Assembly: GCA_016124735.1 (NCBI GenBank)
Contig: WGMZ01000053.1
Coordinates: forward strand, 1 to 64,000
DNA length: 64,000 bases
Direction of reading: 5' to 3'
Origin: Bacteroidota bacterium
Lineage (GTDB): Bacteria > Bacteroidota > Bacteroidia > UBA8524
The notes beneath the pieces are model-generated. The model searched no databases. It was not told the origin of the DNA and worked only from the letters and a program-made list of their open reading frames with translations. This document shows, piece by piece, positions 22,544 to 31,008 of the stretch. Each line of letters begins with the position of its first letter. The stretch's first letter is position 1. A program made the translations under genes and the position numbers.

Positions 22544-22552
22544 ATAAAATGA

Positions 22553-22584
22553 AAAAGCGCGCTCCTTTCGGAAGCACGCCTTTT
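22553..22584. terminator. Imperfect hairpin between convergent genes
   Basis: AAAAGCGCGCTCC - TTTC - GGAAGCACGCCTTTT forms a bulged stem flanked by A-runs and T-runs on both strands. It lies between the flavin reductase and the outer membrane barrel gene and could end both. Confidence 0.5.
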
Positions 22585-23470: not shown

Positions 23471-23488
23471 GTAAGACGACCGTCTTAC
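23471..23488. promoter_or_regulatory. 18-bp inverted repeat over the barrel gene -10 region
   Basis: GTAAGACGACCGTCTTAC is a near-perfect palindrome (8-bp arms, 2-bp centre). On the minus strand its right arm contains the -10-like CGTCTTA. It may be a simple consequence of the promoter sequence or a separate operator. Confidence 0.45.
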
Positions 23489-23500
23489 AGAAGAGTTACA
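23472..23500 (-). promoter_or_regulatory. ECF-type promoter of the outer membrane barrel gene
   Basis: On the minus strand: TGTAAC (23500-23495), 16-nt spacer, CGTCTTA (23478-23472). The same elements precede the sigma-factor gene with a 17-nt spacer. The pattern matches the general ECF promoter layout (AAC-ending -35 and CGTC -10). The -10 lies 24 nt before the ATG at 23447. Confidence 0.6.
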
Positions 23501-23515
23501 GCAAACGAAAAAAAA

Positions 23516-24508
23516 TTAACGGGTGCTGCGGCGGTTAATTTCCACCTGACCTATTTTAATGGTATTGGTAGTTGGGTTGTATTGAAATACCGGAGCTACC
23601 TTGGCTAGAGCAATATTTGCCACATCGCGTGGAATTTCATTCTCTGGAACAATCAATTCACCGGCTCCAACCTTTTGTCTCAATTTTTTGTACACCCATT
23701 GAACCAGCGTTTGCTCTTCAATTTGCTCGGATGGCACAGGCTCTTCAATACTGGCCACCAGGCGGGGTTTCAATTCCTGCAATTCAGGCTCTTCGGCAGG
23801 AGTAAGTTTCAGGTCTAACGCGACAGGAATTCGATTGGTTTGAAACGAATGAACCCGGGTATACCGATAATACTCTCCTGCTTCCTGCCTGTCACTCAAC
23901 TGACTCTTTATGATTTTATCCGGAGATTTGCTTGATTCCCCCACGATTAAGTGTTCTTGTGTGACGGTGGTTTCTGCTACTTCAGCCTGAATTGGTTTTC
24001 CTGGAAGCTCTGCCATTTTGGTGCCCGGCAAAGTCTCTGAATGGAACCATTGGAAAATAGCCATGCCCGCTACCAGGATGGCAGCAGCTGCAACGGACCA
24101 ACGGCGGTAAAGTATAAATACGCTGCGCTTCTTTAGTGAAGATTTATCGGGAAAGGAAATGCTATCGGATGGATCGAGCTGCGTCAATGCATACAGGCGA
24201 CGGTCTCGCTGAAGCTCAGGATTTTGAGAAACCCGTTTATTGAAAGCTTCCTGTTGCTCAGGGTCCAAATCTCCTTCCAGTTCAGCAATCAGTAATTCAT
24301 CGGTGCTGGCATTGTCAATGCTCGGAGCCCTATAAAGATTGTTTTTAAACTCATCATCTAAATGAAATTCCTGAGGAGAAAGAGTCTCTTCATCCATAAT
24401 ACCGGGATGCTGATCGAGAAATGCCACAAACTCCATCTCCAGTTCCTCATCGAGGAAACCGTTGACGAAGTCGTCGATATACATATGGTAATTTTTCTCG
24501 TTTATCAT
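23516..24508 (-). CDS. Probable anti-sigma factor (membrane, no zinc motif)
   Basis: 330 residues. The acidic N-terminal half (about 1-125) lacks the HxxxCxxC zinc motif of classical anti-sigma domains and resembles a pair of short helical repeats (YIDDFVNGFLDEELEMEF and LLIAELEGDLDPEQQEAF). One membrane helix follows at about 133-150 (WSVAAAAILVAGMAIFQW), then a proline/glutamate-rich periplasmic region. The ATG overlaps the sigma-factor stop in an ATGA. Position, topology and coupling make it the partner that holds the sigma factor at the membrane. The sequence family itself I do not recognise. Confidence 0.65.
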   Translation of the reverse strand: MINEKNYHMYIDDFVNGFLDEELEMEFVAFLDQHPGIMDEETLSPQEFHLDDEFKNNLYRAPSIDNASTDELLIAELEGDLDPEQQEAFNKRVSQNPELQRDRRLYALTQLDPSDSISFPDKSSLKKRSVFILYRRWSVAAAAILVAGMAIFQWFHSETLPGTKMAELPGKPIQAEVAETTVTQEHLIVGESSKSPDKIIKSQLSDRQEAGEYYRYTRVHSFQTNRIPVALDLKLTPAEEPELQELKPRLVASIEEPVPSEQIEEQTLVQWVYKKLRQKVGAGELIVPENEIPRDVANIALAKVAPVFQYNPTTNTIKIGQVEINRRSTR

Positions 24509-24993
24509 CCCAGCACTTCCTTGATCGAACCCAGGTAATTCTTCATGGCCATTCGGGCCCTGTAAATATACACCTTCACCTGTGATTCGTTTAGTTCACA
24601 TATTCGTCCAATTTCAGCATAATCATATCCCTCATAATCCCGCAACATCAATACCGTTCTCTGAATTTCAGGCAAACGATCCAATGCTCTGTTTATAATT
24701 GGCTTGAGTCCGCTGTACTGATGTTGTTCATAACTCAACGTCTCCTCCAATCCTTCTGCCTCGCCTCTGAATTTTTCTCTTCTCCAGAAATCCACCATGA
24801 TGTTATAGGCACTGGTGAACAAATACGATTTCGCCTTTGCAAATTCAACTCCTTCCTTCTTCAACCAAAGTTTTTCAAAACAATCCTGCACGACATCTCG
24901 AGCGTGGTCCTCATCCCGCAAGCTTTTCAAAGCAAAACGGAAGACTCTGTCGCTCAATTCATCTACACATAAATTGTATTCGTTTGCGGTCAA
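24505..24993 (-). CDS. ECF-type RNA polymerase sigma factor
   Basis: 162 residues, the typical ECF size. Region 2: FRFALKSLRDEDHARDVVQD with FEKLW following, and AKSYLFTSAYNIMVDFWRR. Region 4: LPEIQRTVLMLRDYEGYDYAEI, then GRICELNESQVKVYIYRARMAM, the HTH that reads the -35 element. The start is a TTG at 24993, after AAGGAACC. No ATG occurs in the first 50 codons without losing region 2. It is followed by the overlapping anti-sigma gene. A TGTAAC-N17-CGTCTAA promoter just upstream suggests autoregulation. Confidence 0.92.
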   Translation of the reverse strand: MTANEYNLCVDELSDRVFRFALKSLRDEDHARDVVQDCFEKLWLKKEGVEFAKAKSYLFTSAYNIMVDFWRREKFRGEAEGLEETLSYEQHQYSGLKPIINRALDRLPEIQRTVLMLRDYEGYDYAEIGRICELNESQVKVYIYRARMAMKNYLGSIKEVLG

Positions 24994-25014
24994 GTCAGGT
25001 TCCTTTTATATCCG

Positions 25015-25044
25015 TTAGACGCCCTTAGTCTATGATAAGTTACA
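25015..25044 (-). promoter_or_regulatory. ECF-type promoter of the sigma factor gene
   Basis: On the minus strand: TGTAAC (25044-25039), 17-nt spacer, CGTCTAA (25021-25015), with the -10 ending 21 nt before the TTG start. Twin of the element upstream of the barrel gene. The two also share the flanking bases CTGTAACT. Confidence 0.6.
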
Positions 25045-28695: not shown

Positions 28696-29184
28696 TTAGA
28701 AATCACCTTTGTCGTTGGCGTCTTTTTTCTTGGTAGAATAATTGAGTTTCAAGGCATTAGCCTTTCTCAATTCCTGTTTTACATCGGTAATGATACCCAT
28801 TTTCACATCACGGTCTGCTTTGATGGAAATAATCATTTTTCCTTTTTGAGACTCAGGCATGTCTTCCCTTACCGTATTTACAAACAGAATAACATCGTCT
28901 TTTGTCTTAAACGCGTCATTCAGTTGAATTCGTGGGGCGGTACCATACTCGCTTTCCAATTGCTTGATAGGAGAACCGATATAGATATACTGTACCAATG
29001 ATTTTTTGGTCAGTTTCTCCACCTCACTGGCTGCCGGAGTATTATTCTTCACTTTCAGTGTAACTTCACGCATGGTGGTTGCCACCATGAAAAAGAACAA
29101 CAACATGAAGACAATATCCGGTAGCGAAGCTGTGTTGATACCGGTACTTCCCGAGTTGGTCCGTTTTTTCTTAAACTTTGCCAT
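28696..29184 (-). CDS. ExbD/TolR biopolymer transporter (second copy)
   Basis: 162 residues. One membrane helix at about 22-42 carries the proton-path Asp in SLPDIVFMLLFFFMVATTM, followed by a periplasmic domain of the ExbD type. It works with ExbB to couple proton flow to movement of an outer-membrane-spanning partner. Last gene of a four-gene unit, 2 nt from the preceding exbD. The two ExbD proteins are distant paralogues, as is common in Bacteroidota. Which periplasmic partner they drive (TonB-like or other) cannot be read, since no tonB is present here. Confidence 0.88.
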   Translation of the reverse strand: MAKFKKKRTNSGSTGINTASLPDIVFMLLFFFMVATTMREVTLKVKNNTPAASEVEKLTKKSLVQYIYIGSPIKQLESEYGTAPRIQLNDAFKTKDDVILFVNTVREDMPESQKGKMIISIKADRDVKMGIITDVKQELRKANALKLNYSTKKKDANDKGDF

Positions 29185-29186
29185 AA

Positions 29187-29729
29187 TTAGTTCCCTTCTA
29201 TATTTTCAGGTTCTGCCTCGGAAATTTTCTGTGGGAAATGGTCTTTCACCTCTTCCAGCTGTTGGTCATTCAATTGGTCGTAAGTCCGCCCATACTTTCT
29301 TTGCGCATATTCATCGCGCACTTCACGATAGGCCGCCTTTAACTCATTCTGAACAGAGATATACGTTATATAATTTGTACCTCGGTCGTTCTTAAGGGAA
29401 ACAACAGCTTTTTCTGGATTATCACTCATATTCGGATCACGGCCATCATTCGTGATAAACCTTTTGGTTATATCCCGCAATTGATTGACCCGGGTCACCT
29501 CTCCTTCTACCAACAACTGGTTGTTGGAGTTTACCAACACTTCCAAGACATTCCGTTGCTTGATGTTTGGTGGAGGAGTATCCTCGGTTTCCATGGGTGG
29601 CAATTTAATTGCAATACCCGTGTCCGAATCCATAGTGGTAGTCACAAGGAAGAAGATGAGCAGCAGGAAGGCGATATCCGCCATCGAACCCGCATTGATT
29701 TCCGGTAATGCTCTGCTCTTTCTTGCCAT
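29187..29729 (-). CDS. ExbD/TolR biopolymer transporter (first copy)
   Basis: 180 residues. The membrane helix at about 17-37 contains the conserved Asp in GSMADIAFLLLIFFLVTTTM. The periplasmic part is longer than in the following copy and ends in a glutamate-rich tail (SEAEPENIEGN). It starts 3 nt after the preceding small membrane-protein gene. It would form, with the second ExbD, the heterodimer inside an ExbB pentamer. The heterodimer is inference. Confidence 0.88.
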   Translation of the reverse strand: MARKSRALPEINAGSMADIAFLLLIFFLVTTTMDSDTGIAIKLPPMETEDTPPPNIKQRNVLEVLVNSNNQLLVEGEVTRVNQLRDITKRFITNDGRDPNMSDNPEKAVVSLKNDRGTNYITYISVQNELKAAYREVRDEYAQRKYGRTYDQLNDQQLEEVKDHFPQKISEAEPENIEGN

Positions 29730-29732
29730 GAC

Positions 29733-30149
29733 TTATTTCATTAAATTTTTAACTTCTGCATAGATGGTTACACCGAGCACCGCTACGATGGCCATATACA
29801 TCATATTTAAAGCTCCTCCCACCATTTTGGATGCCGAAGGAGAAGTAAATCCTACTCTTTCATAAGAAATCAGGATCTCGTTTCCTGCCACAAGGTATCC
29901 AATCAGGAATACCACTACAATCAATCCCACACCAATCAAAGCCCGAATAGCACTTTTAGGATGAGAAATCATTGAAATGATGGGGAAAACGATGGCTGCG
30001 CCGGCAGCAATTACACTCAGGATAAAAGTGACTGTAATTCCAAAACCTGCGCCAGTCACCACGCTGCTATCACTCACGTATATCGCGTAAACGATATAGA
30101 GGCAAATGAGTGCAACCAGTGCGTATAAGGCTGGTTTAATGAATTTCAT
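29733..30149 (-). CDS. Small membrane protein of the exbB-exbD operon
   Basis: 138 residues from the ATG at 30149 (a TTG two codons earlier is also open). Four hydrophobic helices are visible: about 6-24, 36-58, 68-92 and 110-132. No soluble domain or catalytic motif. It sits between exbB and the two exbD genes with gaps of 10 and 3 nt, so it is part of the unit. I recall such a small membrane gene in the same place in other Bacteroidota. Its role in the proton-channel complex is not known to me. Confidence 0.75.
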   Translation of the reverse strand: MKFIKPALYALVALICLYIVYAIYVSDSSVVTGAGFGITVTFILSVIAAGAAIVFPIISMISHPKSAIRALIGVGLIVVVFLIGYLVAGNEILISYERVGFTSPSASKMVGGALNMMYMAIVAVLGVTIYAEVKNLMK

Positions 30150-30159
30150 AATCAAATAA

Positions 30160-31008
30160 TTACTTAGTCGATGAAACTTTGTTTTTCACCAGAATGTCAA
30201 CAAGGTCGATAGAAGCTTCTTCCATGTTGTTTACCAGTGTATCCACTTTGTTCACAATGTAGTTGTAGAACAATTGAAGGAAGATCGCAACGATCAAACC
30301 AGCAACAGTGGTCAAGAGGGCTACTTTAATACCACCCGCAACAACAGCTGGAGAAATGTCTCCCTGAATTTGGATTTGGTCGAACGCCTGAATCATACCG
30401 ATTACCGTACCCATAAATCCGAGCATCGGAGCAAGTGCGATAAACAGAGACAACCAAACCATTCCTTTTTCCATTTGTCCCATTTGAACGGAACCATAAG
30501 AAACGATTGTTTTCTCAACTACTTCGATTCCTTCATCGGAACGATCCAATCCCTGATAGAAGATAGATGCGATAGGTCCGCGTGTATTGCGGCATACTTC
30601 TTTGGCTGCTTCCACACCACCTGTTTTCACCGCTTCTTCAATCTCAAGAACGAATTTGTCTTTATTCACAGAAAATAAGCTCAATGTAATGATACGCTCA
30701 ATAGCCACGGCCAAACCGAGGATCAAACAAATCAATACCGGAGTCATCCACACAGGATCACCCTCAATGAATTTATTTTTAATCACCTGATTCATGCTTT
30801 CGTTTCCGGCATCTTCAGTGACTACTGTCGTTTGTTCAACGACTTCATCCGCAGGTTTTTCTGCTGGAGCAGCTTGTTTCGTTGTGTCATCGGTTGCTGC
30901 AGCTTGAGTCGTGTCTTGTGTTGCTGGCTCACCATCTTGAGCGAACGTGTTCACACCTGTGCTCAGAATCAATCCGAGAGCAAGGAACATAGCAAAGAGC
31001 TTTTTCAT
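30160..31008 (-). CDS. MotA/TolQ/ExbB proton channel family protein
   Basis: 282 residues. It begins with a signal-like helix (LFAMFLALGLILSTGVNTFAQ) and an acidic, threonine-rich periplasmic stretch (about 25-75). Three membrane helices follow: VWMTPVLICLILGLAVAIER near 90, then two in the family core with ALAPMLGFMGTVIGMIQAF and VALLTTVAGLIVAIFLQLFYN near 185-250. The long exported N terminus is a known Bacteroidota variant. It pairs with the downstream ExbD proteins. Strong TTG-18-TATTTTTG promoter upstream. Confidence 0.92.
   Translation of the reverse strand: MKKLFAMFLALGLILSTGVNTFAQDGEPATQDTTQAAATDDTTKQAAPAEKPADEVVEQTTVVTEDAGNESMNQVIKNKFIEGDPVWMTPVLICLILGLAVAIERIITLSLFSVNKDKFVLEIEEAVKTGGVEAAKEVCRNTRGPIASIFYQGLDRSDEGIEVVEKTIVSYGSVQMGQMEKGMVWLSLFIALAPMLGFMGTVIGMIQAFDQIQIQGDISPAVVAGGIKVALLTTVAGLIVAIFLQLFYNYIVNKVDTLVNNMEEASIDLVDILVKNKVSSTK

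Follow-up and report, generated by a model that had tools for sequence, protein, structure and literature searches.

On the minus strand of a 64,000-nucleotide stretch of Bacteroidota DNA (the window, part of a 3.1-Mb genome), two sites of the form TGTAAC-N16/17-CGTC lie ahead of a sigma factor operon and of an adjacent outer-membrane barrel gene, and comparison with related loci makes it highly probable that both are promoters recognized by the locus's own ECF sigma factor. As far as sequence comparison can establish such properties, it establishes the identity of the two sites as promoters, their conservation at both places and their shared specificity. Promoter 1 would drive the sigma/anti-sigma operon, amounting to positive autoregulation, and promoter 2 would drive the barrel gene. 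In the resting state, the membrane-anchored anti-sigma factor would hold the sigma factor; a signal at the periplasm or outer membrane would then release it, and the freed sigma factor would bind core polymerase and transcribe both units, leading to more sigma factor, more inhibitor and more barrel. We infer the sequestration, the release step, the signal and any role of the barrel in sensing.

Genes and promoter sites of the locus

The features of the locus are collected in Table 1. Consistent with the preliminary description of this DNA, the first gene of the operon encodes an ECF sigma factor: PF04542 and PF08281 were found at residues 10–74 and 100–150, corresponding to regions 2 and 4 with no region 3, which is the composition that defines group 4 (ECF) factors. 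Among NCBIfam families, the protein came closest to NF058625 (PG0214/GFO_1088), scoring 118.5 bits against a curated cut-off of 130, and it is therefore not a member of that family. TTG and GTG starts are frequent in this sigma family (24993 in the window; also in loci L069, L070, L012, L015, L026, L028, L029 and L034), which suggests a conserved weak translation of the sigma factor.

The product of the overlapping second gene, which had been described as a membrane anti-sigma factor, has a single predicted transmembrane helix (at about residues 132–156) and is encoded directly after an ECF gene, the combination that marks class I, and the description is supported to that extent. In the structure model (mean pLDDT 70), a helical cytoplasmic domain (residues 1–110) precedes the helix, a disordered tether (about residues 157–265, modeled at low confidence) follows it, and the protein ends in a helix with three short strands (residues 294–325). 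Most of the tether is somewhat less conserved among 43 homologs than this C-terminal domain. A Pfam search with the protein returned no match, including none to a FecR domain, and a PDB fold search returned nothing meaningful; weak zf-HC2 matches were found in 4 of 44 members of the family. Residues 1–110 appear to consist of two consecutive modules that are alike in pattern, and in genomes G012 and G056 the N-terminal module matches two places, as if repeated.

The barrel protein consists of a signal peptide, a disordered segment (about residues 21–70) and the barrel itself (mean pLDDT of the model, 82). The label PorT-like (after PorT of the T9SS), given to it earlier, is justified by a PF13568 barrel domain (36.8 bits; cut-off, 27) but not beyond this broadly shared domain, as no NCBIfam family matched, and a PDB fold search with the protein gave weak barrel matches only, none at E ≤ 0.001. 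Downstream of the barrel gene lies a terminator-like hairpin. The interval between the anti-sigma and barrel genes yielded none, and some transcripts of the sigma operon may continue into the barrel gene alongside those from its own predicted promoter. Near the operon, also on the minus strand, lies what looks like an ExbB/ExbD-type gene cluster (28696–31008).

As originally described, the sigma gene is preceded by TGTAACTTATCATAGACTAAGGGCGTC-TAA (25044–25015, N17 spacer) and the barrel gene by TGTAACTCTTCTGTAAGACGGTCGTC-TTA (23500–23472, N16 spacer), both on the minus strand, with CTGTAACT common to the two sites. The distance from the end of the site to the start codon is 21 nt for the sigma gene (TTG) and 24 nt for the barrel gene (ATG). 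The putative promoter of the sigma factor's own operon has the AAC-containing −35 and CGTC-type −10 of the ECF pattern, as had been proposed. The earlier remark that no such pair was seen in the other intergenic regions examined also holds, these two being the only matches to TGTAAC-N15..18-CGTC in the whole window; shuffled windows contained a mean of 0.13 sites, and two sites in 0 of 100 shuffles, a rarity that is weak evidence alone because the motif was chosen after looking.

Table 1. Features of the sigma factor locus, in window coordinates
Feature	Coordinates	Strand	Basis
ECF sigma factor, 162 aa, TTG start	24505..24993	-	PF04542, PF08281; nearest NCBIfam NF058625, under cut-off
Anti-sigma factor, 330 aa	23516..24508	-	Relatives and structure model; 4-nt overlap with sigma gene
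Outer-membrane beta-barrel protein, 277 aa	22614..23447	-	PF13568; structure model
Terminator-like hairpin with T tail, after barrel gene	22552..22584	-	Sequence scan
Predicted −35 TGTAAC, sigma-operon promoter	25039..25044	-	Pattern search; kept in 64/80 homologous loci
Predicted −10 CGTCTAA, sigma-operon promoter	25015..25021	-	Pattern search and conserved bases
Predicted transcription start (A), 16 nt before TTG	25009	-	Inferred from conserved pyrimidine-purine step 9 nt after CGTC
Predicted −35 TGTAAC, barrel promoter	23495..23500	-	Junction site in 29/75 loci with junction covered
Predicted −10 CGTCTTA, barrel promoter	23472..23478	-	Pattern search and conserved bases
Predicted transcription start (A), 19 nt before ATG	23466	-	Inferred from conserved pyrimidine-purine step
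8-bp inverted repeat GTAAGACG/CGTCTTAC overlapping barrel −10	23471..23488	.	Not conserved, probably chance

Conservation of both sites and their shared specificity

The sigma/anti-sigma pair is present across the class. In about two dozen relatives inspected first, TGTAAC precedes nearly all of the sigma genes, with CGTC at the right spacing in most, and several of the barrel genes also carry the motif. The larger set comprised 80 named Bacteroidota loci with a homologous sigma factor (51–83% sigma identity). Here the full motif fell within the 120 nt preceding the sigma gene in 64 loci, compared with 0.015 matches expected from shuffled upstream regions, and at the junction of the anti-sigma gene and the third gene in 29 of the 75 loci in which this junction was covered; both sites occur, for example, in Marinifilum and Labilibaculum (L110, L115, L129 and L132). 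Both motif positions are thus conserved in the homologous gaps of relatives, a comparison that the preliminary description had called for. None of the 93 occurrences (64 upstream and 29 at the junction) has a spacer other than 16 or 17 nt. The strict upstream motif is absent from 16 of the 80 loci, most of which have relaxed versions of it, and only 14 other sites, many of them also preceding genes, were found in 717 kb.

Conservation extends to bases outside the search pattern, namely a C before TGTAAC and TTT(T) after it, and, within CGTCNTA, to the TA, the A of which is kept in 97–100% of relatives; the window's sigma site, CGTCTAA, has an A where 96% of relatives have T or C. A pyrimidine-purine step 8–9 nt after CGTC is likewise conserved, which suggests that transcription starts 9 nt after CGTC and from which the starts in Table 1 were predicted. 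In genus and family alignments, the −35 block stands out in otherwise diverged DNA, and in the alignment with the congener the −10 does so too. Locus L136 has three tandem copies of TGTAACAAAT-N-CGTCAC on the minus strand, ∼70 bp apart and about 226–369 nt before the sigma gene; they face a divergent gene and possibly form a triple ECF promoter.

Covariation between the two promoters of a locus is expected if one sigma factor reads both. In the 43 loci compared, the fourth base of the −10 was C in both promoters in 35, A in both in 5 and T/C in 3, whereas no C/A or A/C combination was seen, so that the CGTA loci have drifted in both promoters in five of five cases (Fisher p = 1e-6, a value that ignores relatedness, which inflates significance). 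Locus L028 has CATCTTA in both promoters. Among 79 CGTC-type sigma factors, 78 have K or N at residue 53 (window numbering), a position that presumably just precedes region 2.4, and 6 of the 7 CGTA-type factors have T or R there; the residue is a possible specificity determinant, which we offer as a lead only. The same motif lies upstream of many true members of the sister family NF058625, indicating that the specificity is shared beyond this subfamily. Overall, the sequence evidence lends good support to the proposed autoregulation and to the barrel gene as a predicted direct second target.

Extent of the regulon and alternative explanations

The whole-genome search that had been suggested at the outset recovered both operon sites but also seven more exact matches to TGTAAC-N15..18-CGTC, most of them inside genes. 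Nine exact matches in 3.1 Mb compare with 36 for a reversed-pattern control; the genome is thus not enriched in the bare pattern, and position is what counts. The L004, L005 and L008 sites lie inside genes. With a profile derived exclusively from loci of other genera, the window sites ranked first and third in the genome, with modest E-values of 0.008 and 0.022; an equally strong site, C23:80950, is not a credible promoter, being antisense between genes and having no −10 A. The next-best plausible sites are weak matches tens of bases before two lipoprotein genes, one of which carries PF13648 (G000:C24:17191-17229; the other is at G000:C30:13030-13058); one of the two candidates is lipocalin-like. 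These two genes are possible, if weak, extra targets.

Several explanations other than two promoters read by the locally encoded sigma factor were weighed. A chance coincidence of the two sites is rejected by the window shuffles, the 80-locus conservation and the leave-out profile. It is very improbable that another ECF sigma factor of the same specificity serves both sites: the genome holds 21 other ECF-like genes and the sister family NF058625 has the same upstream motif, but no member of that family was found above the cut-off in this genome, none of the 21 genes carries the motif even in relaxed form, and across the phylum the motif follows this sigma gene and covaries with the second promoter. 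Hardly credible, finally, is the idea that the CGTC ahead of the barrel gene is half of a palindromic repressor operator (GTAAGACG-GT-CGTCTTAC) and that its match to the sigma promoter is due to chance. A perfect 8-bp inverted repeat does overlap the −10; however, the repeat is absent from the congener, whose site keeps TGTAAC-N16-CGTCTTA, which largely refutes the operator, and the junction motif recurs in 29 loci.

Two further readings concern what the circuit is for. That the sigma factor answers outer-membrane damage and controls many envelope genes via the motif, as in a classical envelope-stress regulon, we consider rather doubtful. In several more distant relatives, further sites precede genes for GIN-domain proteins, barrels, lipoproteins and a TolC-like protein, and both weak sites in this genome precede lipoprotein genes; however, no homologs of these two lipoproteins were found in the congener (G001), and at good scores this genome and the congener have essentially only the two operon sites (in the congener, the only ones at E ≤ 0.01). 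A broad regulon thus has no strong support in this genome, and, with so few other good sites, the circuit looks nearly self-contained, with the sigma factor, the anti-sigma factor and their neighbor as its core. The envelope-stress circuit proposed in the preliminary description is plausible from the compartment of its proteins, but its predicted regulon is nearly confined to this operon, both here and in the one congener shown to have the operon. The other reading extends rather than excludes the two-promoter explanation and takes the barrel to be the outer-membrane half of a signaling unit, which we hold to be possible, though short of probable. It may be, with similar reserve, that a periplasmic N-terminal segment of the barrel protein is in contact with the anti-sigma factor through the latter's conserved C-terminal domain, and we would no more than tentatively regard the pair as a Dma anti-sigma factor split over two genes, the second of which is on its own feedback promoter. 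The scarcity of other promoter sites is what such a local circuit predicts, and the conservation of the anti-sigma C-terminal domain beyond the variable tether also fits a shared sensor. In locus L227, a single protein joins a PF13568 barrel related to that of the window (E 3.3e-6) to the same anti-sigma domain, which matches the window family at hhalign E 8.5e-10, and in L222–L225 and L228 the anti-sigma domain is fused to PorP/SprF barrels. The fusions are encoded beside ECF sigma genes; all of these fused proteins extend past the stretch examined, and their C-termini are incomplete. Dma proteins have exactly this fused layout (PMC13088901). Across 40 loci the third gene usually encodes an outer-membrane barrel (29), a GIN-domain protein (18), or both. 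Against the reading, the third gene has no PF13568 barrel by Pfam in 11 of the 40; moreover, a fusion indicates functional linkage and not the direction of signal flow. Because the two are fused in related loci, the anti-sigma and barrel proteins of the window probably work together, and the separate barrel may be not only a target but also the sensor's outer-membrane half.

Significance and comparison with known systems

The two-promoter explanation provides a testable promoter, CTGTAACTTT-N13/14-CGTCNTA with a start about 9 nt on, for a widespread and little-studied Bacteroidota sigma family; on this view, sigma factors in many genera would each transcribe two units of their own locus. A connection is also made to the Dma systems, through which Bacteroides controls the formation of outer-membrane vesicles, and outer-membrane monitoring by Bacteroidota becomes directly testable. 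We would go further only as speculation, and consider it on the unlikely side, that a "split Dma" exists throughout the Bacteroidota, in which a tethered anti-sigma factor and a separate barrel jointly monitor the condition of the outer membrane, and the barrel, being under the sigma promoter, closes a feedback loop that measures the arrival of new barrels in the membrane. In a literature search, with most subscription papers outside its scope, we found no paper stating this promoter for Bacteroidota or the split arrangement.

Autoregulation of an ECF sigma factor with an adjacent target is classical, and in the FecI-FecR-FecA system a sigma factor, a membrane regulator and an outer-membrane barrel are encoded together. 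The window locus likewise encodes its three components together but differs in that its third protein, a small barrel of the PF13568 type, is no TonB-dependent receptor, and its anti-sigma factor gave no match to FecR. NF058625 is the closest named sigma family, and TGTAAC-N16/17-CGTC precedes many of its true members; however, the gene after most of the true members examined is a short open reading frame of 150–180 aa, and their −10 often has no final A. In Flavobacterium psychrophilum, a CGT −10 box was mapped for SM6 upstream of the ECF/anti-sigma operon THC0290_1774-1773 (PMC9723704), a CGT-type −10 before an ECF/anti-sigma operon in Bacteroidota as in the window; the SM6 regulon includes T9SS genes, a difference from the predicted regulon of the window, and the likeness is one of −10 boxes. 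Given this promoter and the NF058625 motif, the promoter type is not unique to the window family. The Dma proteins of Bacteroides span both membranes and control vesicle formation, and the main targets of Dma2 regulation are its own operon and some polysaccharide loci (PMC13088901). In Dma1-Das1 and Dma2-Das2 (ECF21), as in the window, the ECF sigma factor has as its neighbor an anti-sigma factor that is coupled to an outer-membrane barrel, and the window anti-sigma factor shares with Dma the cytoplasmic domain, the transmembrane helix and the disordered tether. It ends, however, in a small helix/three-strand domain and falls outside the definition of Dma: whereas the barrel of Dma is the C-terminus of the anti-sigma factor, that of the window is a separate protein with its own predicted sigma-type promoter.
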